From NCBI GenBank assembly GCA_902806565.1, contig CADCXA010000056.1:806001-870000 (forward strand): 64,000 nt of DNA, given 5' to 3'. Source of the stretch: Hypoxylon rubiginosum (Eukaryota; Ascomycota; Sordariomycetes; Xylariales; Hypoxylaceae). Positions 11,893 to 42,640 of the stretch are shown here, in pieces (positions within the stretch are counted from its first letter, which is position 1; every line of letters starts with the position of its first letter). The notes beneath the pieces are model-generated. The model was given only the letters and a program-made list of their open reading frames with translations. It was not told the DNA's origin and ran no database searches. The position numbers and the translations under genes were made by a program.

Positions 11893-12119
11893 AAGATATC
11901 ATTTTTCACTGGTAGACTTATTAATGGGAGGTAGCTAAGGAATTCCTATTTGATTCTTTTTTTTTTTCTTTTTTTTTTGTTTGGGTAGCCGATAAGAACA
12001 GCAGTTACCCCTTGACATTGCTCTTAATGATGATCCCTAATGCGATTTTGAATTTGTTTAAATCCAAGGGACAAAGTGTGGATAATAATATTATCACGGA
12101 CTGAACGCCAATATTATAT

Positions 12120-13684
12120 TTACACGGGAATACTTTCAAGCTTCCTCACGGAGTCCGCTCTCATCGTTATGGCACGTCGAGCCAGCGCCTTCCAGTCCCC
12201 AACATGAATCTTCGGCGACATTCTTGTAACGACAGCATCGTCATGACGTAGCACCCAGTGGTAAACAGAGAACGTAGCCAAGGTTAGCATGGCAGATGAA
12301 ACCACATATATCCAGACCATAGGAGTGCTAACAATCCGATGCGATTCCTGGTCCAGATCGAAAAAGTTCATACCGAAGATAGTCTAGGTATTCGTTAATG
12401 CGTGCGTGTGAAGGACAAATGGCGCTAACCTTATACTCACGGCCACGAAGGAAGCCGGTAGGTAAAGTAAAGTTAGCGTGGTGAGGAAGACAGCTGACTT
12501 GTTCAGCTGCAGCATACTACTATTCTGTTGTTTGGCTAGGATTTGGTCTCGGAGTGATAGGGTATTAGCCAATAGCTGCGCTGTGGTCTGCGCTCGCCGT
12601 TGTAAGAATGCTGCAGTACGGCAGCAAGCCACAGCTTGACGTCGATAATTATCAAGCGTTGCTATCACTCCTGCGGTCTCATAATTCAATTTTCCTTGGC
12701 TAAACGCGGAAGAAAGCTCTCGCAGTACATCTTCCCCTTGGGATAAGAGGGTGGACACTTGGAGGAAACGACTGTCAAGGCTTGTCAAGGTGCTGAGGTT
12801 ATCGTAGCCCACACGTAATGGTTCTTCGATAAGTGTCGTAAAAGTGGTACTCGTCTAGGTAGGTTACCTTCATTAATCCCTCCAAACCTTAGAATATATC
12901 TGATAAGACTTACTTCTGGAATGAGGCTGCGTTCTAGGTAGGCAACGTACTGTCTCCATGCGGGAAAATACGCCGCGAACAATATTTTATGGATATATAA
13001 CGGATCTTGCGGTGGCTTCGTGCCGGAGTCGGTGCCGAGCAGAAAGCTCTCTATCTTCCGGTGTGCTGCTGAGTTTGGCGTCGGGCTAAACAAGACTGAT
13101 ATGGTTCGATAAGTAGCGGTATCAATTCTAAAGTAGAGACCGCTTTGTCTAATAACCCAATTGCCGCTATCGGGCTTTTGTTCTGGATAGCGGATGGTAT
13201 AATAGACCTCTTATATTTAGTTAACTAAAGTTCTGGCTTCGGAGTATGCCCGGGTGCTCACCAGTTAAAGAGCCTCTCCTATTCACATTAACAGGGAGAC
13301 AGTAGTTTATTTCCACGTCGTCGTTCCGGTAGTAGAAGCACGACGGCAGCTCCCAGAATGAGTCACTTATACCGTTCTTCGAAACGAAAAGCTCTAGTAA
13401 TCCCCTAGTGATCTGCAGGGGCCTCCACGACGTCTTTTGGCATATGGACCTGATGAAATTCAGCAAAAACCCAAATGTTCTCATCCTTCATTATATCCGA
13501 GCACATACAAGTGACGGTGCGAATAGTTGCCTGGATCAGTACGACTGAGGTATTCCTCAATTTCCGGTACCGTAGATAGCTCGCGCCGAGAAGACACTCC
13601 GCTGTGTTGATGTAGTGGCAACACGTCTATGAGCCTGATGGGCGCTGTAACTTGATCGATAAAACATTGACTGGGTTGCGACAT
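12120..13684 (-). CDS. CorA-like divalent metal ion transporter
   Basis: Five exons on the minus strand (13509-13684, 13262-13449, 12914-13209, 12441-12854, 12120-12383) join in phase to 445 residues. The C-terminus carries the hallmark: TM1 (AVFLTTLTLLYLPASFVATI), the GMN selectivity tripeptide in FGMNFF (about residues 362-364), then TM2 (VWIYVVSSAMLTLATFSVY). The large N-terminal cytosolic domain contains SICQKTSWRPLQITRGLLELF, the block common to filamentous-fungal CorA-like proteins, and a coiled-coil region LRELSSAFSQGKLNYE. The transported ion is likely Mg2+ or another divalent cation. Many fungal paralogues of this group are diverged, so substrate is uncertain. The intron ending at 13210 would use an AAG acceptor, the weakest point of the model. 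Confidence 0.85.
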
Positions 13685-14949
13685 ATTTAGGTACCTTTAG
13701 GTAGGTACCTAGGTAGGTAGTAACATGCAAATCGAACGCACTAGAGCTGTTGGAGGAAATTTAATCATGCGTTCCATATTCTACCTAGGTACGTTTCGAG
13801 GACTCTTTAATATATCATTCTCAATCCTCAACCCTTAAGCGTAGCTGTCTCGTACTTCATGATTTCGGTGTCCCCGACATCACCTGCACTGCCTCCACAA
13901 ACCAGGGCGCCACACTCGGTCACAGCGCCAGTGCAACTCATTCTTCGTCGGTGATTTGGCTAATTTTATTAGACGGTCCATCGAAAGTCTTGGTTACTAC
14001 ATTTGTTCGCTTACTCGAGGTCAGTCTGTTAAACCTATGTCAGTCCTATAGGCGTTCTAGGTTCTGCCTTGGGTACGACCTCGGAAATCAGGACTCTGCA
14101 GAACTCACCGCACTAACTAGACTGGGGACAGTGAAACACCATTGGTCGTCTCTCAGCTGCGTCGGTCGTCAGTCAGCCTAAGGCTTGGCAGCGTGTATGG
14201 TACGGATCTAGGTACCGACCTGGATGCTGAAATTGGTCTGCTCCGGGAAGAGCCGCCGGAGAAGCCTTAGCAATTTCTCCTCTTTAATGTACCGTGAACG
14301 AATAGTTTGTGTGACCGGCATGCTGACACGACCGTATTTCTAGCACCAGCCGAAGGCAATGGGCTTTATGATGAATTATGGTAAATTGATACGAATAAAA
14401 CAGACCGTAGTTCATTAAGAAACACGATTAGTAAACGGCGAGGAGACCTCAATATATAACCACCCCTTACCTGGTATATCTGGTCCTGTCTTATATACAT
14501 CGCAGACTCGATTGGCACCCAACTGATAACGGCGAGCCTAGACTCGGGCAACGAATGGCGTTCTAGGCACGCAGCCACGGCGTTTCAAGTTTTGATAAGA
14601 AGCCGTCCAAGTGTCTCACACGGTCCATCATGTACTCCAATAGGCGGATGCTAGGCGGATGCTAGGCGGATGCTAGGCGGATGCTAGGCGGATGCTGGGC
14701 TGCAATCGGCCGCATATGGCGCAGTGAGCAGGAAGGTAGGACGACAGGATTGGTAGGTGGCGGCATCTAGGCGTAGTCAAAGCTGGAGGCCTCAGAGCCT
14801 TACGCACAACCATACAGATTTTCATAGAATTTCCGAGTTCTCTATCCATCCAGTCCTTGCTCTATTAGCTGTTGCTTGGTTCGTCACTCGACATCACAGG
14901 GGTCATTTTGAACTGAAATAGTAGTAAAACCCAAATTCGTAGACCGAGA
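13685..14949. other. Intergenic region with GGTA words and an 11-bp minisatellite
   Basis: No gene is supported. TAGGTACC-rich words occur at 13688-13720, directly upstream of the CorA-like start codon, and an 11-base minisatellite occurs at 14643-14697. Confidence 0.5.
14643..14697 (+). repeat. 11-bp minisatellite, five copies
   Basis: Five head-to-tail copies of GGCGGATGCTA; the last ends in G instead of A. The copies are otherwise identical, pointing to recent expansion. The unit is not a multiple of three and no gene overlaps it. Confidence 0.95.
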
Positions 14950-17343
14950 ATGGCGACCACGCTCCGAAATCCATTTGAAAACTCGCGTTTGTCACCGGGA
15001 TCCGGCGACGGTAATGGCCCCCTAGAGCTCTCCGTTCTAACCAATGTGACCCTCGAAGACCGAATACTGCCCACGATTCGACCCATCATAAGGAAAAGGA
15101 GGACGACGCACAGAAAATTACGTCCCATTCAAGTTTTTGTGGGCAGAACCTCCATTAGGGTTGAATACACGATGGCTAACGAGCCTAGATGATTACCGTC
15201 AACGCGACATTGGGAACGGGACTCTACTGGCGAGGCGGACAGATCTTGGAGCTAGGTGGCCCCTTGGCAGTTATCGTATCCTTTCTGGCCCTAGGAATAT
15301 TGTCATGGGGAGTTATGCAATGCATTACTGAACTGCTTTGTATTTGGCCCGTCCCTGGAGCGTTGTCGGTTTTCGTTCGTGTGTTTGTTGACCCCGAACT
15401 TGGAATTGCCGTCGGTATTGCATATTGGTTCGTCGGATGGGCGTGATGATACGACACAGCACCGCTGATATATCATAGGTTCACGTACTCAGTTAGCTTT
15501 GCTGCCTTGATAGCAGCTACTGCGGGCGAAGTTCACTATTGGACTGGCACTACCATCCCAGGCCTCGATGGTGGAGTGCTGTATTTACTTGTTCCATTGA
15601 TTCTAATAGTAATTAATTGCTTCGGAATCGAGGTACGTTCCTGTGGACTGTCGAGGAGCCCATTTTGGAAAATTCGCTAACGAGGCCCATTGATAGATGT
15701 ACGGGTCGTTTGAGGTAGCTACTGGCATCACCAAGTTACTCTTCTTTGCGATCATCGCGATCACGATGATCGTATTCGGTGGGTCCTTACCATAAAAGAA
15801 GCCCGATGGTTAAAATCCTACTAATCATGGGACATAGCTGTTCGAGGTCCCAGAGATCCCGGAGATCCTAACGAAAATAATAACAGTCAGTTGACCTCGT
15901 TTATCTTGTGGAGGATGCCTACTAACTTCTTAGGCTGGCACGATACGGGTAGTTACGACGAGCAGGCAGCTCAAAATTGGGGCACTGCCCTGTTGTGAGT
16001 AGACATGTCTCTACCCGGTCTTGGTACCTGAGTGCTTAGATTCAATATAGTATGTGCCTATCAACTGCAACATTCGCCTATGTCGGTGTCGAAGTCCCGG
16101 CCGCTGCTGCTCTCGAAGCTCGGCCCACGAGACCACAACGCACAGCATCAGGCCAAGCCCAGAGACGCAATAAAGCAAGCAGCATCGGCAAGACTATTCG
16201 TTTTTCGTCACAGTGGGTCTCGGTTTTCGCTTGCGCTGCATATACGCTGAGTGGAATCCTTGTATCCCTTAGTGTCGAACGTGATGACTGCCAGCTGCCA
16301 CTGATAGACTGGTTGTCCTACGATAGGTGTCAGAATCAGGCGTCTCAGACAAATCAGAATATCACTGTGTCGGTATTCACCTTCGTAGCGGAAAGCCGCG
16401 GAAACAGCGCCATAGCGGACGCCTTCAACGTTTTTCTCGTGCTCACGGCTTTGTCGTGTGCTAATACAAACCTTTATGTGGCGTCGAGAACATTATTCGG
16501 TTTAACTAACCAGATAGATAGCGGCCCCGGTGAGGCCTGGTACTTGAACGTCCTTGCGTGGTTTGGACGTACAAATAACCACAGGGTTCCAATTCGGGCG
16601 ATGACTCTGTCTGCCGTCGCCTTTATATGGGTGCCATTCCTGCAACTTTATCGCCCATCCACGGAGGCAGGAAGTGGTACAACTGTAGGAGTAGATACTG
16701 TAAACCTCTCATTTTGGCGGCTTATGGGTTTTCGCTGACTGGGAGTAGTTCATCAACATTCTTTCTCAGATGGGTTCTGTTGGCGTTCTTATTGTCTGGG
16801 CCTGCGAATGTTGGGCGTACATTCGATACTATCACTGGTAAGAGACAGTCGTGCATAGGAAACTCCCCGAAGACTTTGACTTACGTGTGCTAGTATCGAA
16901 CAACACCAAGACGAACTAAGCAACCAACGAGTGCAGCATGTGCGCCGCTTCAGCGATGACGACGATAATGACTATCCATATATAAGTAACGGACAACCAG
17001 TTACGGCCTACCTGGGTCTAGCAGCATCTCTGCTCATTCTCCTGGTACTCAATGGAGCTTCGCTGTGGATGGGGTTCTATGTCGAGCCATTCCTATCTTC
17101 ATATCTTATCGTAAGTATTGATGGTTATTTCTCTGGGAGTGGCAACATCTAACCTAGGGTCAGATTATCATCTTCGTAGGAGTATGGGTTGGCCTTAAGC
17201 TGTGTCGACGTGCAAAGTGGGCACTGGTTGACCTTTCTAACCCAGAACAAGCCATAAAAATCTTCCGCTACCTTCACGGGTTCAGTTTTGCCGGATTCCA
17301 GGACGAATCAAAGTCTGAACCCGACAGAGGTACAGCCTCATGA
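14950..17343 (+). CDS. Amino acid permease (YAT/APC family)
   Basis: Ten exons can be joined in phase (14950-about 15132, 15189-15442, 15479-15632, 15697-15778, 15838-15885, 15934-15994, 16051-16699, 16749-16837, 16894-17110, 17164-17343), giving about 638 residues with some twelve membrane helices. Family marks are HRKLRPIQ followed by MITVNATLGTGLYWRGG (first half of the consensus TIGTGLF loop), LAVIVSFLALGILSWGVMQC, FVGWAFTYSVSFAALIAATA, SVFTFVAESRGNSAIADAFN and the polar C-terminal tail after the last helix. The first donor is uncertain: GTTTTT after CAA or GTGGGC two codons later, both in phase. It should be a plasma-membrane symporter for amino acids. It lies 2.6 kb from the repeat precursor gene; whether they are linked functionally is open. 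Confidence 0.85.
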
Positions 17344-17631
17344 CCGCTTCCAGCATTATCCAGGTACCTACCTGGTATAGTAAAAGAAACACTGAATTAC
17401 TGGGACTTTTGGTATGTTACTGGGGAATACACACACATATACAATCCTCTTTGAAGTCGTCTCCCCTAATAAGGCGGACAGTATGAAGTAACACGGCATG
17501 CTCTTTTTGAATTCACATGTAGCATAACCTCGCATGTAAGCCAATTAAAGATAACCATTGTAATCTCATATAACGAAGGCTTGACGGTCCAATCGCGGGG
17601 AAGGTCGTCGACGTAAGCTGTGCTCTCACTT
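17344..17631. other. Short spacer
   Basis: Spacer of 288 bases between the permease and the monooxygenase relic. It carries ACCTACCTGG words and no gene. Confidence 0.4.
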
Positions 17632-17893
17632 AGCACCTTGCTCGCGGATATTTCAAGTCTCGTCGAGATCGAGGCCGCGTTCCAAGCCTACGACGTGGTG
17701 AGATGGTCGAGGGCCCACCGCGTTGTCGAATCGAGCACGGGGACTGCGAGGATCATACGCGGGCAGGACGTGGAGGCCGGGGTGGATCCGGAGAGGATGT
17801 GGGACGCGCTGACGGATACCTAGGTGGAGATTTCTTTTCGAGTTAGACATGGAGCAGCACGGGAAACTTCAAGGAACTGCTGCGTTGGATTAG
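17632..17893 (+). pseudogene. C-terminal relic of a salicylate-hydroxylase-like FAD monooxygenase
   Basis: Only the C-terminal part of a family member is present. One frame reads LLADISSLVEIEAAFQAYDV followed by an R-x-x-R-A-H-R-V-V block and ends RMWDALTDT. These match the AF-x-A-Y-D-x-V-R-R-x-R-x-x-R-V-V helix and the D-x-W-D-A-L block of fungal salicylate-hydroxylase-type monooxygenases. After a stop at 17821 the homology continues one base out of frame as WRFLFELDMEQHGKLQ, the W-x-W-x-x-D-x-D block. No N-terminal FAD-binding GxGxxG region is seen upstream. The piece is thus truncated and frameshifted, and not functional. Confidence 0.7.
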
Positions 17894-18397
17894 GTAGGTT
17901 TAAGCGAAAGGGGTGTCGCAACGGACGCCGCGGACGCCGAGGTACGTTAGTTGATGGCATCATGGGATTTGAAAGAGCTTGTCATTGCCCCGTCGCACCA
18001 GGATGTCTGCTGCTGCGAACTGATTACCGAAATAATCTACTTGGTACCGCTGATTTCTCAGATATGTACATTGCTTTAAGTCCTGCTGCCGGTCTGGAGA
18101 AGTCACGGCTTGCTGGCTTGTCAAGTGTGCTTATGTGCTTATATCTCGACTTGTGACATGTCATGATGATTCCTCCGATAGGAGCGAGTGCATCCTATTC
18201 CTCCCTTGAGATGGTGGCGTCTGCATGATGGCACGGTACATCTCCTGACAACCTACGAGTGCTTCTCCCGGATCATTCCTTCTCACATTCACATTGCTGG
18301 ATCAAGTACACATCAGTTCAAGCCCTCTTTTACCACCATGTTCATCACGTACCGTTATCTTGGCATATAGGATTTGGTAAGAACCACAAATAGAAGG
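17894..18397. other. Intergenic spacer
   Basis: About 500 bases without a supportable gene. Open frames are short and have no motif. It separates the monooxygenase relic from the convergent small gene on the other strand. Confidence 0.4.
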
Positions 18398-19193
18398 TCA
18401 TATTTCATTAACATCTAGAGCAGTCGTTGCATCCGGGTAAGCAGCCATTATATAGTAACGTATAACGTATTCCCTTTGAACTCCAATCATAAAATTCGCA
18501 TAGGTTCCGTAAAATTCCAACCGCAAGACGTATAAAAGGTGTAGAAACAGGTGCCTACTTACCGACAGCGTCCCACTTGGTAAAACCATCTTCGAGCGAT
18601 GACAGAGCAGACGTAACATCATCCCGCAGCATACGCAGTGTCGAAGCGCTGCTGTATACGATCTCGAGCTGCTCGAACGTGTCCACGGCTGCGGCTCGCC
18701 CTCGCATAAACTCGATCATATTGTTCAGCGTGGTGAGTATTTCGGCCCTGGCTGGTTGGATCGGTTGGTACACCCCGTTGGTCTTGAGGACGGCCGCGCC
18801 GACGGCACGCCACGCCTGCTTGGTGACTTCGATGCCCCATTTTCCCCTAGCCGTTATCGAGAAGCTGGCGATCTGCTTGCGGTCCAGCAGGAGGTAGCAG
18901 GTCTCGCCGAACACGCCGAAGACCTCCCCCAGGCGCGCCTTGAACCCCGCCGCCTTTCGTTGCGAAATGAATCGGTCGAAGGCGAACGTGATCAGGTGCT
19001 GGCTGATGGCGGCGTCCCGGGGCTTCTGCGGGTCGGGCGCCGGCTTCTGCAGGTTCTTGAGAAGTCCGATCACGCCTGAGGGGCTCTTGGTCTGGCAACC
19101 TGGGCACCGATTGCTGTTGTCGCGAGGCACGTGGGCAAGGTTCGTGCCGATACGGCCCTTTGGCAACTCGTGACCACAGGTAAACCTCGCCAT
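18398..19193 (-). CDS. Unknown fungal protein with N-terminal Cys/His cluster
   Basis: Exon 1 (18563-19193) starts MARFTCGHELPKG and would end in a stop built from a consensus GTAAGT donor. Splicing to a TAG acceptor gives a short second exon, 18398-18414, ending VNEI and yielding 215 residues. The N-terminus has CGH and CPGCQ, a possible half or atypical zinc ribbon. The rest is helical and amphipathic (FRGRAAAV-like segments, LEDGFTKWDAV). I do not recognise the family; similar short proteins with a MARFTCGH-type start occur in filamentous ascomycetes. It lies 0.75 kb from the end of the repeat precursor gene, but nothing shows a link. If the intron is wrong, the protein ends at 18555. Confidence 0.6.
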
Positions 19194-19938
19194 TTTGGAA
19201 GGGCTTGGGAAGGTAACCGAAGAAAAATGAATATGGATTCAAACTTTGGATGTGATCTCTTGGTTATATGGGTTGGCTTCACGAGAAAACCTATTAAATC
19301 ACATAATTCTTTGTTGTACGATGGCGGTTCAGAGTCTTGCATTTATTGTATAATACAACGGAGTCAACAGCACTTTGTCTTTGCACAATGCATGGACCTT
19401 AGACAATGTCTATGATATCTTTTACATCATACAATAAGTGAAACTTGAAGAGACGTATTTTATTCATGACAATCGCTGAGTTTCGGAAGTTGCCCACTTA
19501 CCCCCTGAAATTCGTAGGTGTGAGTTATCACGAGTTGTGCTCAAAGCTGCCAAATGTGGCGAGGCTATTGATGACCTACAAGGCCTGACAAGACTGCAAA
19601 TTATATTATGAAAGAGCTGTAACTTGAAGCGCTGTGTCGCGTACAATTCCTTTCACAACCCTAGGGGGAGGCAATCGAAAAGTCTTGATCATCCTACGCC
19701 GTACGTGCCCCTAACTAGAAAGATCAGGAATCTCGATCATTAATTTCCAGCGAATAAAGAATGTCTTGAAATTGAATCTATGGCTTCGCGTACACCAAAC
19801 TACTGCCGATATGTATCAATTTCGGTCTTAACCACCACCCCCCTTCCTCCCGCCATACTTCCCTCGAGTGGAAAACAACTCAAAAGAGGTTCGACTCTAA
19901 CTACATAGTAGCATCTGACCCCCCCAGTCGTGTCAAAC
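19194..19938. other. Intergenic spacer
   Basis: No supported gene. The region is AT-rich and should contain the promoter of the minus-strand small gene and the 3' region of the repeat precursor gene. Confidence 0.4.
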
Positions 19939-20130
19939 TCAGAGCCAGTAGTCCGTGTCGGCTTCAGTAGCCCCGTCACGTTTAGCTTTGAGCCAGTAAT
20001 CCGTGTCGGCTTTAGTTGCACCGTCACGTTTAGTTTTGAGCCAGTAGTCCGTGTCAGCCTCGGTTGCTCCGTCGCGCTTGGCTTTGAGCCAGTAGTCGGT
20101 ATCGGCTGTAGTTGCCCCGTCACGTACAGC
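19939..20130 (-). repeat. 48-bp coding minisatellite
   Basis: Four consecutive 48-base units inside the precursor gene encode the 16-residue peptide repeats. DNA copies differ mostly at silent positions (for example ACGGCT versus TCGGCT forms on the plus strand), while the DTDYWL part is kept. That pattern suggests selection on the peptide rather than very recent copying. Confidence 0.85.
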
Positions 20131-20334
20131 TTTAAGAGCGAAGTCGGAATCGGACTCGGTCGTTCCATCACGGATCTTCAGTGTGTCTGAAGACCCCATC
20201 TTAGCTAGGAGGTACATGGAATTAGTTGATATCGGCTCTCATAAGGACGAAATGGATATTGGTAGCTTACGCGAGGTTGTAGGCATAGCCGAAGCAAGAG
20301 CCGTTAGAAGGAGGGTGAGAACGACAGATTTCAT
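19939..20334 (-). CDS. Secreted Kex2-type repeat precursor, candidate dikaritin-like RiPP precursor
   Basis: Two exons, 20271-20334 and 19939-20204, joined by a 66-nt intron (GTAAGC donor, TAG acceptor), encode 109 residues. Exon 1 is a signal peptide, MKSVVLTLLLTALASA. After a 14-residue leader come five tandem repeats: one diverged (KIRDGTTESDSDFAL) and four of the form KAKRDGATEADTDYWL, varying only at KA/KT, V/K and T/E/K positions. Three repeats carry a Lys-Arg site suitable for the Golgi protease Kex2; the first two carry IR and VR. The last repeat ends at DYWL and the stop codon. This layout (signal peptide, dibasic-flanked repeats, Tyr in the core) is that of ustiloxin, phomopsin and asperipin precursors. 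The divergent neighbour is a UstYa-family oxidase. Predicted role: source of Tyr/Trp-containing, probably oxidatively cyclised peptides. Product and activity are unproven. Confidence 0.8.
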
Positions 20335-21383
20335 GTTGAAGATATATTGCTGAGATGGTTGCAGTTGTCCAAAGTCATTTAGGAGGCGGACAAGACACCA
20401 TTATATACCCGTATATCTCTGAGAAGAAGCATGTCTTCTACGGGGTGTCTCTATATTTCGAGCTTCGTTGTCATTTCTTTGTCAGCCCGGGTTACATAAT
20501 TTCCTATGAGAGGATATTCAACGTGCAGTGCTATGCCTATCATGCGTAGTACTTTTCACATAACTGGCTGTATTCCCCGCTAATAAATACACCAAGATCA
20601 TGTAGCAATTGTTTGCGAGCATCACCGTCGGCTTCCCATCCATATTCATGCAGTATGGCCAAACTGTCTACCTCTTCTCGCTATAGCCTAGGCCGTCTTT
20701 TCGGCTTACCTTTTTGTGTAATAAAGGCGAAGCGAAAGGACAAATGACAATAGAAACATCTTTCCGTAAGCTATTATCACCATGCCAACTTTCTTAGTCA
20801 TGACGCTTTCTAATCGGCGGGGAGCTTAGCAAGAAGAGCTCATGCAGAGGTGTCGTCGTTGTGGTTCAGGGGTAGGTAATGCGCTATCACAACCTAGGTA
20901 GCTTCTCTCAAACTCAAAATTACATAGGTCAGTGACGATATCTCATGGTGTCTTCGATAATACACTTCACTTCTTGCTGACGCCAGCATCGCATACAAGT
21001 CCTAGTAGGTGCTACATAATGTCAGTTGGTTCACGGTCCAGCCAGGGCCGGATTAGGGTCTCCCGGAATTAACGGCAGGCAAGACATTTCCGTATCATGC
21101 TCCGACTCGAGGCCTGTCATCCCTGGATTTTCCAACTTGAGCAGGCTGGTGAGAAGATTATGTTGGACGGGAATATCTTACGGCAGTAACTTATGGATTG
21201 GACTAGATGTAGAATGGCTCAACTCTTACAAACTCGTGGCTATGGCTGCATAACTATAATATATTACCCACTCCGGATTCTCGAACTGTTGTGGTGTATC
21301 CAGAAGATACAGACATGTCGGTGCTAACTTGAATACCTGTGTTACTTAGGTTAGGTACCCAAAGAACTACGAACACCACCACC
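20335..21383. promoter_or_regulatory. Divergent intergenic region between the RiPP-like precursor and the UstYa gene
   Basis: This 1.05 kb stretch separates the two start codons, which face away from each other, so both promoters must lie here. No coding region is supported; the open frames at 20355-20549 and 21026-21253 have no motif. A TAGGTTAGGTACC word lies just before the UstYa start. I cannot assign a regulator binding site. Confidence 0.55.
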
Positions 21384-22447
21384 ATGCCACACTACGAGAA
21401 AGTCTCGACTGAGTATGAGGAGGATAAGCCATTCCTGTCCTCTGAAGGATATCGGCCTGACGATCAGAATCTCCCTGGAGACGGAGACCGCTTCTTACAA
21501 AGTCGATTCCTCAAGACACATAGTATTCTCTTCGCAATTCATGCGGCTTTGATATTCCTGAATGTTGCTCTTTTCATTCGCGGGGCCACGTCCGCAGCTA
21601 TCTGTCATACCAACAATGGACTAGATAAGGCAATGTTTGAGAAGACGTTCTGTGAGTGGAAGAGAACGACGCACTTCGCTATCTTCTTTCGCTAACAGAC
21701 ATGGTACTTAGCACCCGCAGAGTCAGCCATCCGCTACACAGCCAAAGAGCTCGAATATGAGCACATCCCTAGTCCTTTCGTTGGAAAACCTCGACCGGAG
21801 CTTGACCATGCCTGGACACAGTTGCTGAGGTGTAAGCACCTTCTTTTAACTCAACGAGAGGAAACGAGGACTAATAAGGCGCCTTTTAGCGACGATGGTC
21901 AAAGTCAGCGAGGACGAGATGAAGAGGATGAACAAGACCTCCGTCACCCTTCGAGATGGCAGTGGTTATGTTGGCTATCTAGAGTCTCTTCATATGCTGC
22001 ATTGCGTGGTGCGTATGCTCCATCAGACTCCCTACGCACCTAGGTGCCTACCACCTTTGCTTACCATCAACAGAAAAGGTTCTATGAATCCCGGTATCCG
22101 GAGCACTATCCCGATATCCAAGCAGAAAATGGCCTTTCCGATGAGCACTTGGGTGAGTCCTGCCGTGACCCAAAGATTACCTCTTCGCGCTAAGTAAAAT
22201 GAAAGACCATTGCATCGAAGTCCTCCGCCAGGGTATCATGTGTAACGCGGACGCGACAATTAACACCTTCTTCTGGGAGAACCCGACCAAGATCGACGGC
22301 GATAGATCAGGGCCTCGCAAGTGTGTCGACTGGAACCGTTTTCAGGCATGGGCCGATGAAAGAAGGCTCGGCTTCAGCGGTAGGGAGGCTTTTATTGCTA
22401 CTTTAATCCCAAGCGATGATCCTGGAACTATGGGACCAGTGGTTTAA
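21384..22447 (+). CDS. UstYa-family (DUF3328) oxidase, candidate RiPP cyclase
   Basis: Five exons (21384-21651, 21712-21831, 21890-22008, 22074-22152, 22206-22447) join in phase to 275 residues. An N-terminal cytosolic segment precedes one membrane helix (SILFAIHAALIFLNVALFI, about residues 45-64). The lumenal part has the family blocks PAESAIRYTAKELEYEHIPS, GKPRPELDHAWTQLL, then the two catalytic motifs HMLHC (about 164-168) and HLDHC (about 194-198), followed by VLRQGIMCNADATI and a Trp-rich end. UstYa and its relatives (PF11807) are copper-type or metal-dependent oxidases that close ether or C-C/C-N bonds in fungal RiPPs and related peptides. Both motifs are intact. The gene diverges from the repeat precursor, so cyclisation of its DTDYWL cores in the Golgi is the natural inference. 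The last acceptor (AAAG at 22205) is chosen because it restores HLDHC. Confidence 0.9.
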
Positions 22448-22995
22448 TTGCTTTATCAGATCATAAGCATCCGGAAGACTCATTCAAGGCCTGAATGATC
22501 GTCCGGTAGGTTGGTAGTTATGCCATTAACATTATTCTTGATGTCTAGCTGGTAAATGTCAGGGCTCTGACCTTCTGGCCTTCAACCCCTTAGATGAGGG
22601 GGCTGATAGTGTTAGCTGTCGGGTGGGCTGTTGGTCTGGATAGAAGGGCTGTGTTCAAAGGATAAAGGATCTTAGGGTAGCTTTTCGTAGTTACCCAGGT
22701 ACCTGGACTCAGTGAAAAATTCGGACTTTTATGACTGTCCAACGTCGACCTTGTTCTGTTTCAACTTGGCTGCTATTTCCTCTCCCTTTTTTTCCCTCTC
22801 CCTTTTCCCCCTCTCCAGTCTCGCCCCCATTCTCAGCTCTCTGGCCATACTTGCAATTGCTTCCAGCATCACTCGTTTGGCACACGCTTCTACTTGCTTG
22901 CTCTCGATCCTGTTCTTGCTCTATTTTCTATTTTCTATTTTCCGACTGCCTCTCAAAATTGACGATAAGCTTACCCAAGTGACTTGTCAACCAAC
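22448..22995. other. Intergenic spacer, pyrimidine-rich
   Basis: Tail-to-tail spacer between the UstYa gene and the HET gene. A strongly pyrimidine-rich tract of CCCTCT/CCCTTTT words lies at about 22775-22835. No gene. Confidence 0.45.
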
Positions 22996-25272
22996 TCATA
23001 TAAGCGAGACCCGTTGTCTACGAAGCTGGAGAGGATCAGGAGCTAACAGGTTAAAGTCGGGCTGGACGCCATTGGAGCCCATATCGCCGTCCTTATGATC
23101 TCTTTTGAATGCGCATACTACAGGATTATCCGACCTCCATTTACGAGGAACGAGCCGATCCCACAGTGCAGATGACCCTTCGCTAATCAGACAGCCGTCG
23201 ACAAAGCCGACTCTCCTGTACCTCTCCGACGTCTCGTGTTTCTCGACTACGAGTCCGAAGCGATGCTCGAGGAAATCGAACTGGAGGACGAATGGGAGCC
23301 GCGTTAGAAAGACGATATAAAGGCGATCCGTCTTGGCTGTACGTTCCTCTTCCTTGATATCGAACGCGCCGTCGATCCCGATATTGTGGGTTCTGCCATC
23401 AGCGTCGTGATATTGAAAATAGAATGCCTGATCGGCAATCAGCGACCTCTCCGGAGCTAACCCAAACTGTGACCCGGAATCTGGTGGTGTTTGCGTGCGT
23501 TGCTTGAATCTCCGGATAGGCACAATCGGCGCGTACAGGCATAATTCGCTGTCAGATAGTCGGTCAGAAGGCTCGACGTCGCGTCTCTCAACAGTCTCGT
23601 TGCCATATGCGGCTAGGGGCTCAAAATTCGCCTTTGACCCTTTCCAGCCTGCCCTTCGTTCGTACCAAGAGTAGATGGGGAATTGGACCTGTCCCTTGAC
23701 GGAAACCCATGCCCACGATGGAGCAGAGTAGCTCCTTGGGCGAGCGAGAAGGTTGTCAGTGGACGCAGCGCACCACATGAGGCCTTCTAGAAGCCCATTT
23801 AGCCAAATTCCAATCAGATATTTGTCCCCTGTTTGAACTTCGAGCGCCTTCGCCAGACCGAAAAGCGCCGGCAAGCGATCTGAATCTTTGGTGATGTCTC
23901 GACCGGTATAGTCCTCAATCATATTGTACCAGTCCACATAGTTGAAGTAGTCACTATCTGAGAGCCCCGTGAAGACAGTCTCCTTCGCGGCTGCCGATCG
24001 CCCTATACGCGAGAATTGGTCTCCAACCACCGAAGCAAAGTCTCCGTTTTCAGCGGCGTGAATCTCGCCACATTCCCAATATATCTGCTGTAATCCGTAG
24101 TGGAGGACTCTTCGAGCTAGGTAGCGCTCCTGTAAACACCACGCTCTGCGGCTCAACGGCTCGTTATCAATCGGGTGGGCATCGTATGTCGGCTGCAGCA
24201 GGTCGCACGGCAATGCCTCAATGCTGAAACCCTTCCCGTCACTTGCTACGAGCTCAACATGTTCGGGTCCCTGACGAGGACTAAGAAACCCTTCGCTATC
24301 CGAGCTTGACCTCGCTGCAGCCAGGACGAAATGCGCATTGCGATATACCTCGGCCATCTTTTCCGACTCTTTACGCCAGTCTTCAATATCGTCTTGAATA
24401 ATACACAAGCTATCGATCCAGAGATAGCGTAACCCAACCTCACGAACCACCCGAACGGCATCCTTGAAAGTCTGGGGAAGTATCTGGATAGGTATGCCTT
24501 CCTTATGACTTTGGAGAGTGGTCGATGTCGTGCAGAGCTGCTCCGCTGTTCCCCAGCAGTGACTAAGAGCCACATAACGGTGGTCAGGTTCGACGCCGCT
24601 GTCTCGCAGAAAAATACGATCACTATGTATTCCATCATTGACGTCGAGGTATCGAAATGGCAAAGCAACGGTTTGGGTTTGAGATGGGCAAGACTGGTGT
24701 TTCGTCAAGCATGTGTCCAACCAGGTCTTTGCGGTATTGACGACTGATACGGACGTTGAATCTCTGTCGACAGCGATTCCGATGTCAACGTCATCATGTC
24801 CGATGAGATGACCTTTCTCGGCAGGATATGTCACCCTAAATCGTGCCACGAGTTCGCCATGAACCTCGTAGGATGCTTGATATCCAAAGCTACACGATAT
24901 TCTGAGGATGAAACTCCATTTTTGACCTTCGCTATAAAAGCGGTATCTTTTAACAACACCAACTTCCACTTTTGCGTCCTTGTAGATATCTTCTATGGCG
25001 GCATAGAGGTCGCTGGGCGGGTCCTTGGGGTCGAAATCCGCATTGCTGGTAGCAATGCTTATAAGTCGTGGGCGCCAGTCCCTCCAACCAAGAACGACTA
25101 ATCGGCATAGTTGGCAAGTCGAGGCGGACGCGAAGACGTCGCGAGTTCGTGAGTACCATCCTCCCGTTTTCACCTCGGCCCTAAAGATTTGCTGGCCGTC
25201 ACTTGGCGTAGCTTGTGCCTGCCGCAGAGCTGTGGCTACATCAAGACTCGAGCATTTTGAGCAGAGAGACAT
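22996..25272 (-). CDS. HET-domain protein (heterokaryon incompatibility type)
   Basis: One uninterrupted exon of 758 codons. The N-terminus MSLCSKCSSLDVATALRQA followed by a Cys pair (CQLCRLV) is common in fungal HET proteins. The HET domain (PF06985) spans about residues 230-385. Its three conserved blocks are present: YVALSHCWG, then LRYLWIDSLCIIQDDIEDWR with the E-x-x-x-M-A-x-V-Y helix, and later SRRAWCLQERYLARRVLHY. The C-terminal half has YSAPSWAWVSVKG, the usual W-S-W block. Such proteins trigger cell death in non-self recognition between strains, though most members are untested. The convergent neighbour is the UstYa gene, 548 bases away; I see no reason to place this gene in that pathway. 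Confidence 0.92.
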   Translation of the reverse strand: MSLCSKCSSLDVATALRQAQATPSDGQQIFRAEVKTGGWYSRTRDVFASASTCQLCRLVVLGWRDWRPRLISIATSNADFDPKDPPSDLYAAIEDIYKDAKVEVGVVKRYRFYSEGQKWSFILRISCSFGYQASYEVHGELVARFRVTYPAEKGHLIGHDDVDIGIAVDRDSTSVSVVNTAKTWLDTCLTKHQSCPSQTQTVALPFRYLDVNDGIHSDRIFLRDSGVEPDHRYVALSHCWGTAEQLCTTSTTLQSHKEGIPIQILPQTFKDAVRVVREVGLRYLWIDSLCIIQDDIEDWRKESEKMAEVYRNAHFVLAAARSSSDSEGFLSPRQGPEHVELVASDGKGFSIEALPCDLLQPTYDAHPIDNEPLSRRAWCLQERYLARRVLHYGLQQIYWECGEIHAAENGDFASVVGDQFSRIGRSAAAKETVFTGLSDSDYFNYVDWYNMIEDYTGRDITKDSDRLPALFGLAKALEVQTGDKYLIGIWLNGLLEGLMWCAASTDNLLARPRSYSAPSWAWVSVKGQVQFPIYSWYERRAGWKGSKANFEPLAAYGNETVERRDVEPSDRLSDSELCLYAPIVPIRRFKQRTQTPPDSGSQFGLAPERSLIADQAFYFQYHDADGRTHNIGIDGAFDIKEEERTAKTDRLYIVFLTRLPFVLQFDFLEHRFGLVVEKHETSERYRRVGFVDGCLISEGSSALWDRLVPRKWRSDNPVVCAFKRDHKDGDMGSNGVQPDFNLLAPDPLQLRRQRVSLI

Positions 25273-25789
25273 ATTGAAAGCTGAAGGACAAGCAGTTCTC
25301 GCTCAGGTCGCATCGTGGGATGGTACCTATATGTAGGTAGGTAGTTGAAGGATCTGACCCCGCTTACTCAGCGTTGAATATTCCGATTGGGTAAGACAAC
25401 CCCTGAGAACCCCTGGCTCAGCCTCAGCTTCGATCCCATTTGACAAATATTAAGAGCACTCGGACAGGAAATGTGCCGTAATTGAATAAGCATATGTCTC
25501 AAGCGTTCCATAGCAAGAAGCAATTAAGTATTATTGGTAAGGAGTCTCGCTATAAAAAGTGTAGATGGGATATGATCTTGCTTCGTTTGGGAATATCTTC
25601 TACATAGTTCCCTCTTTACTGGTCCCTGTTAGCGGACTGTCCTACGGGAAACACTTGGAATATGGCATCCAATAGAATGTAACATCAGCACCTAATTGTA
25701 GTAGCACTTACAATTCCCTAGAGGTACGATGTATCTTGAGATAATTCCTATGCGTTATTTCGAGCCTAAACTGTTACGGTTGAAGGGAA
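25273..25789. other. Intergenic spacer
   Basis: Upstream region of the HET gene and flank of the transposon relic. It contains ATATGTAGGTAGGTAG words next to the HET start and no gene. Confidence 0.4.
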
Positions 25790-26166
25790 GTGTTAGGCTG
25801 AGTGTCATGGCGAACCTTTCGAAAGACCCTCCTTTTCTTAGGGGTAAGAGGGCCGTGGAGCGCATTTTGGACTTAGCTGTAGGTCGAACCGGTCGCCTGG
25901 GCCAGTTAGACGTAGCTCAAAGTAGGAAAATACTCCTTAGCTATTCGAATCCGCAGTTTCTCGTCTCGAGTAAGATTTCTAGACCTGGATTTCCTGTCGG
26001 AGATACTATTGGCATCTTTGGGACGTTTCGCTCTAGTGTTCCGCGGTGATTCCCGTGGTTGCGGGTTTTGCTGGAGTTGGGTCATCATATTGGCGTCCAC
26101 CGGCTCAGGGGTTGTAACCTCTAGGCGCTTTTTTACTAGTTGATCAAGGTTATCTTGTAAATCCAT
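25790..26166 (-). pseudogene. Tc1/mariner-like transposase N-terminal relic with glutamine-to-stop changes
   Basis: The minus frame starts MDLQDNLDQLVKKRLE and reaches NLTRDEKLRIRIAKEYFPTL, the N-terminal helix-turn-helix block of fungal Tc1/mariner transposases. The frame then stops at TAA, but the homology continues in the same frame: LAQATGSTYS, a second TAA, then VQNALHGPLTPKKRR. At both stops the family has glutamine, so single C-to-T changes (CAA to TAA) explain them, as expected after repeat-induced point mutation. The catalytic DDE region is not seen, so the copy is truncated as well. Confidence 0.65.
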
Positions 26167-26513
26167 TGTAGTAGACTATGAAGGAATTTACAGCTCTAAA
26201 ATTGAGATTAGAAGAAATGTTAAAAGACATCAGTTGAGAATTTCAGTAGAAGGATAGGGGTCCAGATGTTGATGTCAGAGAAAGCCGTGCACCTCTACTG
26301 CTTAGTTCTACCCAATCAAAAACAAAGGCGGGGCTTATCTTATCGAACAAGGGGGATTTTCAGACTTGACAGCTTCAATACGGAATATTCGCCGTCTATT
26401 CACCAATTCACAACCACTAACCAACGATTAGTTCGCAATTCATACCGGATATCATATGATGTGTACCAGGAGTATTGTGCGTCGATGGTGATACCTCCAG
26501 ACGCCAAAGGTCT
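26167..26513. other. Intergenic spacer
   Basis: About 350 bases between the transposon relic and the MGR3-like gene. It should hold that gene's promoter. No gene seen. Confidence 0.4.
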
Positions 26514-28334
26514 ATGATGCCTGGCCAGATAGCTTCAGGTTGGCATCGTGCGTCCGAAGTCCTCAAGATGCAGCCACCGCGCACTCTAATCCGTCGCCTC
26601 CTCGTCCTCCGCTCCTCGAAATCACCAACGACCACTACCCGCCGATTCACGAGACATACCAACCTCGCCTCCCGCGGGCGACCGCAGATCCCGTACCTAT
26701 CCGTTCCCCTCGCTAGAAATCAGCAGTTCCGATATCTGACGACCGAGCGGAAGAGATGGCTGGCTTACGAGGTGTTCCTCGGGTTCAAGTACACCATATA
26801 CGTCTGGGCCATCGTCGGGTTCTCCGTCGTGGCCTACTACAGCGTGCAGCAGGAGTGGCTGGAGAGGAGATACCCCACGCCGCACGAGTGGAAGTTCGTA
26901 ACCCGGCTGCGGTTCCGACTAGCGAAATGGGCGCCCGACCGGACGGACTTGCCCCAGACGGACTGGGTCCTCATCGGGAACTACGCCAAGAATATCCTCG
27001 AGAGGCTGGAGGATCCAAAGGTCGACGGAGCCGGGCTGCAACACGAAGCCGGAGGGCCTGGGTACGATGCGACGGCGAAAAGCGAGCCGTGGAGGAGAGG
27101 CTACTACGAGGCCTTAATGCTGTGCGCGAAGGCCGCAGAGAATCTCGACGACCAAGTCGTGGATAAGACTCGACGATTGGTATTCCCGTCCAACCAAGTC
27201 GTAGGCCCATCAAATCTCAATCCGAAACCCATCGCCCACGGCTCTCCAAGCGCACCCCTCGAGAAGGACTGCGAACGCGCGTTCGAGGCGCCGGACGGCT
27301 TCTACCAAAAGATATTAAACACGAACGGCTTCACCCCGAAGCAGAAGCTAGACGCCACGTTGGAGTACGCCTCCTGGCTCGACTTCAAGGGCCTGCCCGA
27401 TGCCTCCGAGCTAACGTACGAATGGGCGCTGGCACTAGCCACAGAAACCTCGTCATCACCAGCGCCGCAACAACCGCCCCTCTACGACGCGCAGTCCTAC
27501 GTGCTCCACCACGACACCGCACGCCAACCCTCCGAGAGCCTCCTCAAGACCTTAACATCCCTCGCCACACACAAGGCGCGCAACGGCGACGTCTCCTCCG
27601 CCCTCCCCATCCTCCTCTCCGTCCTCCGCGCCCGCCGCTCCCTACCTCAGCCGCCACCCCAAGCGACACAGCCCCTATACGGCGAGCCCACAGCAACAGC
27701 GCCGCCGCACACCTCCTCCCCCTGGACCATGGAGAACATAACCGGCATAGCCAGACGCCTCCTCGCGCCCCCCTCGTACCCGCCGCCCCCCTCCGACGGC
27801 GCCTCCCCCCCTATCCGCGACGCCCGCGAGCTGTGCGAGGAGGCCGGGCTGAACCTGTACATCGGGGAGATCATCTACGCGTCCTCCTCTTCCACCTCTT
27901 CCTCGTCGTCGCGAGGTAGTAGTAGCAGCAACCGCGAAGACGGCCTGGCCTGGACCCGCGAGGCCGTGGACCTGGCTGAGGAGCAGCTGCATAAACTGAA
28001 TAGCAGCAGCAGTAGTGGTGGTAGTAGGGACGACGTCGCCAAGAAGACGTGCCGCGAGTGCCTGAGCAGCGGCCTCGATAACTGGCGTCTCATGGTGGCG
28101 CGGCTGGCGCGCGAAGAGGCCGAGAGGCAGAAGGCTACGGGCGGTAGCGGTAGCAGTGGCAGTAGCAGCAGCAGCTGGCTAGCGAGCCTATGGGGCGACG
28201 GCGACCCCGAGGATACCAGGGGCAGGTGGGCGGCCGAGGAGAACGTGGTGAAAGAGCGGACGAGGAGGGCGCAGGAGGTGCTGGAGGAATCCGAGACCCC
28301 GAATGCTGGGCTGGGGTCCTTGTTCTGGGCGTAA
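26514..28334 (+). CDS. Mitochondrial inner-membrane TPR protein, MGR3-like
   Basis: A single exon gives 606 residues from 26514, or 588 from the in-frame ATG at 26568. The second start exposes a textbook mitochondrial presequence (MQPPRTLIRRLLVLRSSKSP, Arg/Ser/Thr-rich, no acidic residues), so I favour it. One membrane helix follows (YTIYVWAIVGFSVVAYYSV, about residues 90-110 of the long form). The remainder is helical and TPR-like: LLQTDWVLIGNYAKNILERL-type helices, LDATLEYASWLDFKGLPDAS and PILLSVLRARRSL. The family resembles yeast Mgr3, an adaptor that delivers substrates to the i-AAA protease Yme1. Low-complexity Ser runs at about residues 470-540 lie between helices and are likely loops. 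The codons are GC-rich. Confidence 0.75.
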   Translation: MMPGQIASGWHRASEVLKMQPPRTLIRRLLVLRSSKSPTTTTRRFTRHTNLASRGRPQIPYLSVPLARNQQFRYLTTERKRWLAYEVFLGFKYTIYVWAIVGFSVVAYYSVQQEWLERRYPTPHEWKFVTRLRFRLAKWAPDRTDLPQTDWVLIGNYAKNILERLEDPKVDGAGLQHEAGGPGYDATAKSEPWRRGYYEALMLCAKAAENLDDQVVDKTRRLVFPSNQVVGPSNLNPKPIAHGSPSAPLEKDCERAFEAPDGFYQKILNTNGFTPKQKLDATLEYASWLDFKGLPDASELTYEWALALATETSSSPAPQQPPLYDAQSYVLHHDTARQPSESLLKTLTSLATHKARNGDVSSALPILLSVLRARRSLPQPPPQATQPLYGEPTATAPPHTSSPWTMENITGIARRLLAPPSYPPPPSDGASPPIRDARELCEEAGLNLYIGEIIYASSSSTSSSSSRGSSSSNREDGLAWTREAVDLAEEQLHKLNSSSSSGGSRDDVAKKTCRECLSSGLDNWRLMVARLAREEAERQKATGGSGSSGSSSSSWLASLWGDGDPEDTRGRWAAEENVVKERTRRAQEVLEESETPNAGLGSLFWA

Positions 28335-28837
28335 AAGTTGGATGGGATCGGATCGGATTGTAAATAGGGGCTGGGGGAGACGAACGGAGACATGCTTGTT
28401 CGTTTACTACGGCGGATAAGTATAGCTCCATGTCTTCTATCCAGCCTAACTACGTCGTGTCTAGCTAGGTATCTTGCTTGGCTCAAATAGCTGAGACATC
28501 TGAGGATTTACGATAGAGTCGGTAATGCTCTAGTCTAAACATACTCGCAGTCAAAATATGTAAAATGTTAAGAATCTACAATACGCACTTGTGTTCTTTT
28601 CGAATAATGTAGAAGAGTTTCGTCAGAATCTCGAATACTCTTATTGATTTGCTATTAATCTACGATGTCCTCGAGGCTAGTTTCACAAATCTCAGCAACT
28701 CAACGATTTGCCTTGCCGGACAAAATAGAGGGCTGAAACCATCCAGTCCTCATTTTTTTACCCTTCTCACCCTTCTCGCCCCCTTTGGCTTTCTCATCTT
28801 TCTTCTCCCCGGTCTCTTCTCTAGCACCCTCGTTATC
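28335..28837. other. Tail-to-tail spacer
   Basis: Spacer between the convergent MGR3-like and Arb2-domain genes. No gene. A C/T-rich tract near 28745-28830 may belong to the 3' region. Confidence 0.4.
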
Positions 28838-30426
28838 CTAGCTACTATCAGGGCGCGTCAAGAGAACAAGGCCGGACTGCTCGCTGCCCTTACCATGGGC
28901 CTCCACAGGCTCCATTTTGATTTGAGACTCCTCGTCATCCTTGTCATCCATCTCCCCCTCCGCTTCGCCCTCCTTCCAGTGGCTCCAATCAGGGTCGGTG
29001 ACGGTAACGGGGTCGGTGTAAACGATGTCGAACTTGGGGTTCGCGTAGTCTTCGCCTTCAGGCGTCATGGCCACCTCTTGCACCCAGTCGAGGACTAGTC
29101 CAGCGCTAGCGATGAGCGTAAGCTCCGTGAAGTGCGGCTCGCCGCTGCTGAATATTAGACAGCCCATACCAGTAAAGGTTGTCGTCTTGGGGTTGCCCTC
29201 GGGGCCTGAAAGGGGCATACCAGCGGGCTCGAGGGATGTCGCATACGCACGTGCTTTCTAAAACGAGCACTCTTGTTAGTCGTAGTGCAAGTAAGAAAGA
29301 AAGAGAAAAGGGGGTATAGGAAAACGGAATGTGGAGGGGGGAGAGTAGAATAGGGAGCAGGGAAATTTATAGAAAATAAATACGTACATTCTTCAGGAAT
29401 TCAGTGGCAAAATCCTTGCTGCGCAATTCCCATACAGGGTGTAGGCCACCGACGAGCGCAAGGCAGTTGATGCGTTTCTTCCAGGTTTCCCACACAACTG
29501 GTAGGTCCAGGTACTGCTCGACGTAGTCTGCGCCGTCGCCCACGCCGATGACATCGATTCCAACGTTGTCCTTCACAAAGTGTGGGATCACTTTATCAAA
29601 GATATAGTGAACGTGGAACTTGGGTTTCTCATTGCCCTCAATCGAGTTCTTCTCCGTGATCAGGTTGCCATTATGCACGGCACTCTTCGCGGGCATGTTG
29701 TCAAAGGCGAAGCGACCGACTGCTCGCTGCCCTTCAGGCGACCAGATCAGCTCGCCCATGTTGGCCAAGATGATGCCCGGCGGGCTGGGGTCGGTGGAAG
29801 AGGTGTGCTGCTTCTGCAACTCGGAGACAATGGATACGAGGGAACCCTTGTTGACGCCTCCGGCACCGCCAATGACGCGGTGTGCGAGCATACCGAGATC
29901 TTGCAATGACTCTCCGAAGATAACGACGACGCGCTTCTTGAGGGGAAGGTCACGGCTAACGAAGATAGGGATATGTGGCTTCGACGGATCCTTCGTGCCG
30001 ATGGGTAGGAGGCACTTTGTCATATCGAGCTTCTCTAGACGCTTGTGAACCTCGTTCTGGAGTGCCTCTGAGTAACATTTGTGTTAGTTGGTATTTCATG
30101 CCAATGTACCTGCCTGCCTACATCTGAGGCTTTATCGGGGGAGTTTCAAGGCGAACCAAGAGTATACTGACGGTTAATGGCGAAGCGCTGGCGATCATTC
30201 CATCGTGGGTTGCGGCTCAGGAAGTACTTGAAATAGTTGTCCGGGTTCTGAATGGATCGGACCTCGTCATCCTCGTTGATGAAGTAGCTAATAAGCAACG
30301 TAATCAGTGTTGCTTCTCTTCAGGTATAAGTAAAAGTAGGATTTCAAGGTCAACATACCCAAGCTTCTCTAGATCGACGGGGAACTCAGGGTCTGCTGGC
30401 AGACCTGACCACAATCGTCTGAACAT
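28838..30426 (-). CDS. Arb2-domain protein
   Basis: Four minus-strand exons (30359-30426, 30172-30287, 29388-30067, 28838-29257) join in phase to 427 residues. The start MFRRLWSGLPADPEFPVDLE is followed by LGYFINEDDEVRSIQNPDNY, then the alpha/beta-hydrolase-like Arb2 core: KKRVVVIFGESLQDLGMLA, then GIILANMGELIWSPEG, FDKVIPHFVKDNVGIDVIGV and CLALVGGLHPVWELRS. The C-terminus is acidic (EAEGEMDDKDDEESQ). Arb2 domains occur in the S. pombe Argonaute siRNA chaperone complex and in Hda1-type deacetylases, where they probably bind nucleic acid or partners rather than catalyse. This standalone fungal version is of unknown function; a role in silencing is an inference. Confidence 0.8.
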
Positions 30427-31198
30427 CTTGCGACGTTGGCGAAGTGGGAAAGAGGTGGGTATTATTTATGCTACTAGTAGCAAGAAGAGATTTGAATGTG
30501 AAGATAGATAGCTAGACGCGTGACTGTGAAGAGGATTCACGTTAGACTAAAAGTTGCTCGTCCAATTCTTCAACGGCGTTGTGAGAGGTAGGTAGTGGAT
30601 AAAAGTTGAACACAGGTCGAATCGGTAGGATCTAGGTACATAATGTTGGTTACCTAAATGAGGTTCCTTAGGAAGGTTGTCCCTAGCAATACCTAGTCTG
30701 TACCTTGTAGGTATTGGGTCAAAGGTTAGGTAGTGACAAACGGCGGCTCTGGTGACCGTTTGCACGATTGAGGGAAACTGCAGACTGGGCTAACTTCAAT
30801 ATGTATTATGCAATGAACGCCAATCCATTTGGTCGGTTATGCACTTGAAGAAACGAAGATATCGAATACGGTTCCCCCTATTGCTCTAAAAGCCACCTGT
30901 CGAGAATTCATGCCTTATACTCCTATATATTTCAGTCTAAATACCATCTGCCTCTATATAGGAGGTACATATAGGGGAAGACGACACTGTAACAAAATAA
31001 TCCCAAATAATCAGGTCTTCACTTGTTAGCAGAGAGAACTGCAGTTCCAATCGCAGTCGAATTCATGGGAAAGGCAGGCAGGTTCTTTCAGGTTCTGCTA
31101 TTGTAAAATACAATATGTGATATGCGACACGTATTAATTGTGAGGCGGCGTAACACAATCACCCCAATATCGTACACCGACATATGCTCGTGCCGCTC
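30427..31198. other. Intergenic region
   Basis: No supported gene in 770 bases. AGGTACATA and TAGGTA words are common. Contains the Arb2 promoter and the uS14m 3' region. Confidence 0.4.

Positions 31199-42582: not shown

Positions 42583-42640
<58 letters not shown>

Follow-up and report, generated by a model that had tools for sequence, protein, structure and literature searches.

A repeat precursor of a conserved 12-mer family and its divergent UstYa/DUF3328 neighbour in Hypoxylon rubiginosum: a candidate two-gene RiPP locus

Two divergently oriented genes in a 64-kb stretch of the Hypoxylon rubiginosum genome (the window) probably form a two-gene RiPP locus, in which a peptide released by a Kex2-type protease would be oxidised by the copper-type UstYa protein encoded beside its precursor. 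One gene, on the minus strand and with a single intron, encodes a 109-residue secreted repeat protein and the other a UstYa/DUF3328 protein of 275 residues. A few fungal toxin pathways have DUF3328 enzymes, and in the ribosomal ones among them whose rings are solved a tyrosine takes part in ring formation. The locus is best described as belonging to a conserved family of Kex2-type repeat precursors (KEPs) with a UstYa protein, which the texts searched do not describe and which would work in the manner of a dikaritin pathway. It is not a dikaritin locus in the narrow sense: the scanned stretch has no tyrosinase match and the repeat has no conserved tyrosine. The likelihood given here is that of the pairing of enzyme and peptide; a tyrosine ether, considered below, is a special case of it and its odds overlap. 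Support for the pairing comes from the gene models, selection on the repeats, the 12-mer common to the family and the recurrence of one UstYa group on the same contigs as the precursors.

The precursor gene and its UstYa neighbour

The precursor gene runs from an ATG at 20334 to a stop codon at 19939-19941 (minus strand, 109 aa). Exon 1 (20271..20334) encodes the predicted signal peptide, MKSVVLTLLLTALASA, with AxA ahead of the predicted cut; after an intron of 66 nts (20205..20270; GTAAGC...CTAG) exon 2 (19939..20204) carries five repeat units and then the stop codon. The signal peptide call was made from composition (mean Kyte-Doolittle 2.69 over 11 residues) and homologs only, exon 1 being aligned in the latter. 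The splice model is a prediction: the GTAAGC donor has two acceptors that retain all five repeats, with introns of 66 and 84 nts, and the shorter was chosen because Hypoxylon texense P0001 has the matching residues GSSxTLKIRDG.

A repeat unit consists of a 12-mer and a spacer ending in KR or, once, VR, and the final unit is a bare 12-mer, DGATEADTDYWL (19942..19977, minus strand), which abuts the stop codon. The original prediction had five tandem repeats, each with DTDYWL. The number stands; DTDYWL is present in four of them, and repeat 1, DGTTESDSDFAL, reads DSDFAL instead. Repeat 1 follows IR and repeat 2 VR, neither of which is a dibasic pair, and the other three follow KR. The protein thus has the makeup of a KEP (a signal peptide and repeats separated by KR or RR), with three of the five repeats after KR. 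KEPs linked to DUF3328 are those with such a gene within 15 genes, and here it is adjacent and divergent. For repeats 2-5 the pooled proportion of silent differences, pS, is 0.582 and that of amino-acid-changing differences, pN, 0.046; since these repeats differ mostly at silent sites, they are genuine coding sequence. That comparison, together with shuffling of the mature part (49 of 20,000 shuffles contain any 6-mer twice or more) and the 31 database proteins with the same repeat, rules out a chance repeat.

Head to head with the precursor gene, and separated from it by a shared upstream region of 1049 bases between the start codons (20335..21383), is the UstYa/DUF3328 (PF11807) gene (21384..22447, plus strand). 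Its five exons, with introns at 21652-21711, 21832-21889, 22009-22073 and 22153-22205, encode 275 aa with one N-terminal hydrophobic helix and the motifs HMLHC (at 164) and HLDHC (at 194), which make up the HxxHC(x)nHxxHC arrangement. This splice model also is a prediction, three of 51 open combinations being tied for the best score, and the combination chosen is the one in which the FSPAxSAxxY stretch of homologs is kept. HLDHC depends on splicing of the fourth intron to the AAAG acceptor, and its two histidines and cysteine are invariant across 33 aligned UstYa homologs. The PF11807 search that had been proposed for the 275-residue model gave an E of 3.5e-44 over residues 48-248 (151.7 bits against a cut-off of 25). 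A signal-peptide repeat protein head to head with an intact DUF3328/UstYa protein, as originally claimed, is therefore what these positions hold, and a Kex2-type repeat precursor with a DUF3328 oxidase is indeed the general anatomy of dikaritin-like loci.

The top full-length database matches of the UstYa protein are from H. texense and Hypoxylon cercidicola, the protein of the latter (P0007) being 76% identical over 89% of it. No PDB relative was found by sequence at E 1. In a structure model of P0007 (mean pLDDT 67) the HxxHC motifs (159-163 and 189-193) are on two helices (156-170 and 187-203), with one long N-terminal helix ahead of them. At that model confidence, the motif helices and the N-terminal helix agree with the description of CctR, the cyclochlorotine hydroxylase. 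Passages of PMC12435403 present CctR, a DUF3328 protein, as a copper-dependent homodimer with the HxxHC pair as metal site, and implicate DUF3328 proteins in hydroxylation, halogenation and macrocyclization at inert C-H bonds. The window's protein shares with CctR the HxxHC...HxxHC arrangement and one membrane helix; copper is known for CctR and is predicted from sequence for the window's protein. CctR differs in acting on a non-ribosomal peptide, and it shows hydroxylation of a non-tyrosine residue to be within the reach of the DUF3328 family (both from the same passages).

The 12-mer family and its linkage with UstYa proteins

An initial search found five related precursors, and a profile made from these and the window's precursor yielded 31 database proteins at an E limit of 10, the weakest of them having 1e-5. 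The family thus has at least 31 further members, a lower bound in that scoring covered the 7994 candidates sharing most words. It spans Sordariomycetes, Eurotiomycetes and Dothideomycetes, the class having been looked up for three species and being presumed for the other members. Pfam searches with ten of the precursors and NCBIfam searches with three gave nothing above cut-off; P0061 came close to the threshold against a transcription-factor fragment, apparently by chance.

The conserved unit is the 12-mer DGTTEFDPD(F/Y)x(F/L), in a repeat pattern R-DGTTEFDPD(F/Y)(A/G)(F/L)-K.KR. Among the 86 repeats matched in 32 proteins (the window's included), D7 and D9 are each present in 81, E5 in 80, F6 in 73 and P8 in 69; the motif search behind this set restricts positions 1 to 4, so that part of the conservation there is built in. 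Phe occupies position 10 in 41 repeats and Tyr in 16, Trp is found at position 11 in five (only in the window fungus and H. texense), and position 12 is taken by Phe in 53, by Leu in 27 and by Tyr in three. The third units of P0003 and P0077, which are out of register, are retained among the 86, at least two units were missed by the motif (one each in P0055 and P0075, both with tyrosine), and the repeat part of P0059 is common to P0058, so the rows are not independent. Tyrosine is absent from the matched repeats of 21 of the 31 relatives, or of 20 when the diverged P0075 unit is counted.

KR or RR precedes 74 of the 86 repeats. Because ten of the 32 precursors (the window's among them) terminate exactly at position 12, the alignment suggests that the mature peptide ends there, the KxKR tails being trimmed from the inner copies. 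The family alignment rules out DTDYWL as the core: the unit extends from the processing site to Phe or Leu 12, where those ten precursors end. Nor is Tyr-Trp a defining feature, given the counts at positions 10 and 11 and the Tyr-free relatives. What was borne out is that the sequence is unlike the named cores YAIG and FYYTGY. Judged by the alignment, DGATEADTDYWL, without F6 and P8, is a diverged form of the family 12-mer common to the window and H. texense, the DTDYWL form being found elsewhere only in H. texense P0001. H. texense has a second family precursor, P0066 (Hte_010437), with canonical DGTTEFDPD, on a different contig with no UstYa match.

A six-frame search of the window's genome, with the best candidates scored, gave no clear further copy of the precursor family; there were two weak matches, on contig C9 (E 0.027) and contig C7 (E 7.3), and exact DG(A/T)TEFDPD is absent from the genome.

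Relatives of the window's UstYa protein number 49 among the database matches; 41 have two exact HxxHC motifs, and identity is 44-76% for 39, less for nine and 89% for one partial protein. Twelve of the 31 precursors are on a contig whose length exactly equals that of one with a UstYa match (seven of these twelve are without tyrosine in their matched repeats); identical length is a proxy for synteny, and 19 precursors are without such a match. For the H. texense pair the gene numbers are consecutive, Hte_012386 for the precursor and Hte_012385 for the UstYa protein. Three pairs, apparently of the same assembly as judged from name prefixes, are on contigs of unequal length: P0067/P0026 of Triangularia verruculosa, P0069/P0034 of Poronia punctata and P0073/P0037 of Xylariaceae sp. 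FL0255.

In a tree of 36 of the 49 UstYa matches and the window's protein (P0045, of the twelfth pair, was left out) the proteins of the 11 remaining pairs and that of the window are in one 33-row group with support 99/97. As a label on this tree, linkage needs nine changes against a shuffled mean of 10.3, and 126 of 500 shuffles were as low; the linked rows are therefore not clustered. The remaining 21 of the 33 rows showed no linkage. The scatter fits an old association with gaps left by missed small genes or by losses.

Genomic surroundings

The neighbourhood was scanned in six frames with Pfam (E 0.001) over 10001-19902 and 22451-32352, a procedure by which short or much-split genes can be missed. 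Over these stretches there was no match for a tyrosinase, P450, methyltransferase, flavin enzyme, peptidase, MFS transporter or reductase; nor, specifically, for an S41 peptidase, a PhomM-type methyltransferase or a PhomR-type zinc-finger regulator. The only matches were to an amino-acid permease, HET, an Arb2 domain and ribosomal S14. An open reading frame of 227 codons next to the precursor (18558..19238, minus strand) has no Pfam match. Beyond about 10 kb on each side the scan took in chosen long frames only, so that a distant gene is possible.

Elsewhere in the window there are two heterokaryon-incompatibility (HET) domain frames (22999-25302 and 54889-55890, minus strand), the end of an AMP-binding enzyme (33343-33894, minus), three adjacent importin/Cse1-like frames of which the outer two are under the curated cut-off (57290-60569, minus), an array of 21-base units (38229-38374) and an AGAC repeat of 19.5 copies (42584-42661).

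The genome (48.3 Mb in 70 contigs) has 43 PF11807 matches, two of which are the window's UstYa gene, and there is no other on its contig, C56. Around the others, 20 stretches of about 10 kb were compared, the matches on contigs C6 and C69 being left out. The best-scoring match of the window's UstYa protein in these 20 loci is 37.9% identical over 87 residues, with shorter ones at 40-52%; this compares with the 44-76% of 39 of its 49 database relatives and counts in favour of the pairing. A simple repeat detector picked up Kex2-type repeats in three of the 20, including one of EDYXI type. Across the 64-kb window this precursor locus was its sole detection, and the background rate is that of the window alone.

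The EDYXI-type (ustiloxin/phomopsin) repeat precursor is on contig C18, where several PF11807 matches lie at about 37-62 kb; it is at 9707-9901 on the minus strand of stretch L021, at the end of the stretch (L019 and L021). On contig C9 a Kex2-type repeat protein with a tyrosine-rich repeat unlike the window's (L017:2268-2810) is about 1.8 kb from a UstYa match. The third Kex2-type repeat protein by a UstYa match, on contig C32 (L026:7323-7616), has tyrosine in two of six units.

The expected chemistry, its alternatives and the wider family

On the favoured reading of enzyme and peptide as partners, the signal peptide would take the precursor into the secretory pathway, where a Kex2-type protease presumably cleaves after its basic pairs and the KxKR tails would be trimmed to release 12-residue peptides such as DGATEADTDYWL. 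The UstYa protein, presumably membrane-anchored and of the DUF3328 binuclear-copper type, would then oxidise one or several C-H bonds of the released peptide. Given that tyrosine is missing from most relatives, a reaction shared by the family is expected on the conserved, non-tyrosine part, at Phe/Leu 12, the D-x-D pair or Phe 6, and might be a hydroxylation, a desaturation or a cross-link without a phenol. In the window fungus Tyr 10 could still take part. Points against the pairing are the 19 of 31 precursors without a contig match, the three split pairs, the unpaired P0066, the lack of clustering of linked rows, the lack of a dibasic pair before repeats 1 and 2 and the pLDDT of 67.

The rings of ustiloxin, phomopsin and asperipin-2a are ethers on tyrosine (passages of PMC7329392 and PMC6514808). 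The alternative that survives best, itself rather unlikely, is that the locus makes a dikaritin in the narrow sense: DTDYWL would be a tyrosine core, with a Tyr-O-C-beta ether joining, for instance, Tyr 10 to Leu 12 in the way that Tyr is joined to Ile in the phomopsin ring. D-Y-W-L does resemble the EDYXI core of ustiloxins and phomopsins (a passage of PMC6339444), four of the five window repeats have the tyrosine, and asperipin-2a is made by one DUF3328 protein acting on tyrosines (a passage of PMC6514808). However, with tyrosine missing from the matched repeats of 21 of 31 relatives (20 with the P0075 unit), an ether of this kind is unlikely as a family rule; the seven Tyr-free members of the twelve contig-paired precursors and the absence of a tyrosinase match in the 10 kb scanned on each side also count against it. 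Passages of PMC7329392 put repeats with Y at 65.6% in DUF3328-linked KEPs, so that Tyr-free cases as such are already known.

Comparison with the characterised pathways bears on the same point. Ustiloxins and phomopsins resemble the window's locus in signal peptide, Kex2 repeats and DUF3328, and the window fungus has acidic residues before its Tyr. However, their pathways also rely on a tyrosinase, and on two and five DUF3328 proteins, respectively (passages of PMC6514808 and PMC7329392). The window's locus has one DUF3328 protein rather than two or five, its conserved 12-mer replaces EDYXI, and no tyrosinase, methyltransferase, P450 or S41 peptidase was matched near it. A UstQ/PhomQ tyrosinase in the cluster, as in dikaritins, was not found within 10001-19902 and 22451-32352, and an EDYXI core with conserved Tyr is only approached by DTDYWL, Tyr 10 being present in just 16 of 86 repeats. 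The original claim that the pair is the minimal signature of ustiloxin and phomopsin pathways is accordingly not upheld. Of the three, only asperipin-2a (aprA, aprY, aprR, aprT) has a single DUF3328 protein with its repeat precursor, as at the window's locus. It differs in its core, FYYTGY with tyrosine ethers, and in its reductase and transporter (passages of PMC6514808); at the window's locus there is no Tyr rule, and the single DUF3328 protein is present without a match for a reductase or an MFS transporter in the 10 kb scanned on each side. Epichloecyclins (gigA) have the signal sequence, repeats and KR sites in common with the window's precursor and differ in a Tyr-based ring and lysine methylation (a passage of PMC6514808).

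It is improbable that the product is a linear secreted signal or pheromone-like peptide whose UstYa neighbour is accidental or acts on something else. No DUF3328 gene is near 6120 of 7878 Kex2 repeat proteins (a passage of PMC7329392), the 12-mer is well conserved across classes, and the three apparent same-assembly pairs are not on one contig. An accidental neighbour is nevertheless at odds with the 12 same-length contig matches among 31 and with the consecutive H. texense gene numbers, and in another passage of that paper almost all annotated mating factors and pheromones are without a DUF3328 neighbour. That the locus is decaying, with Phe 6, Pro 8 and two dibasic sites gone from its repeats and its peptide perhaps no longer made, is very improbable: divergence from the consensus at positions 6 and 8 and the IR and VR before repeats 1 and 2 stand against repeats 2-5 that are near-identical in protein and not in DNA, the same DTDYWL form in H. 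texense, and a UstYa frame with intact motifs.

No name for the 12-mer peptide was found in the literature searched, and none of the open-access main texts covered contains the motif strings, whether those of the window or those of the family. The conserved motifs listed in passages of PMC6339444 differ from the 12-mer, and it does not figure in those of the Trichoderma and lichen RiPP surveys (PMC7099791 and PMC12048977). The window's precursor fits the definition of the KEPs of Umemura 2020 (7878 proteins in 838 types, 2560 single) and would join the 22% of them with a DUF3328 neighbour; the family may sit unnamed in the tables of that study. Passages of a Hypoxylaceae survey (PMC8403587), which searched by similarity to PhomA, OphMA and GigA, report ustiloxin-like RiPP clusters and state that it cannot be estimated whether the clusters found cover the real diversity. 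A search with the DGTTEFDPD motif would find clusters missed by similarity to known precursors.

Two reports touch on sexual development. In Sordaria, protoperithecia show raised expression of a DUF3328 gene cluster (a passage of PMC3472292), and DUF3328 genes are said to be expressed more highly in mat- than in mat+ Podospora (cited in a passage of PMC5006380); in both cases the genes may be of a group other than the present UstYa group. For Podospora gene numbers guessed from locus tags, no paper on mating-type expression was found.

For the enzymology, this minimal pair of peptide and enzyme, with natural Tyr and Tyr-free versions in related fungi (Xylaria grammica has a Tyr-free pair), makes recognition and the bond attacked directly testable. 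That distant moulds conserve a secreted peptide of 12 residues suggests a shared role. It may be proposed, tentatively, that the DGTTEFDPDFxF family of three Ascomycota classes is modified by its own UstYa group in a tyrosine-independent reaction and that its peptides may serve in signalling or in sexual development and not as poisons.
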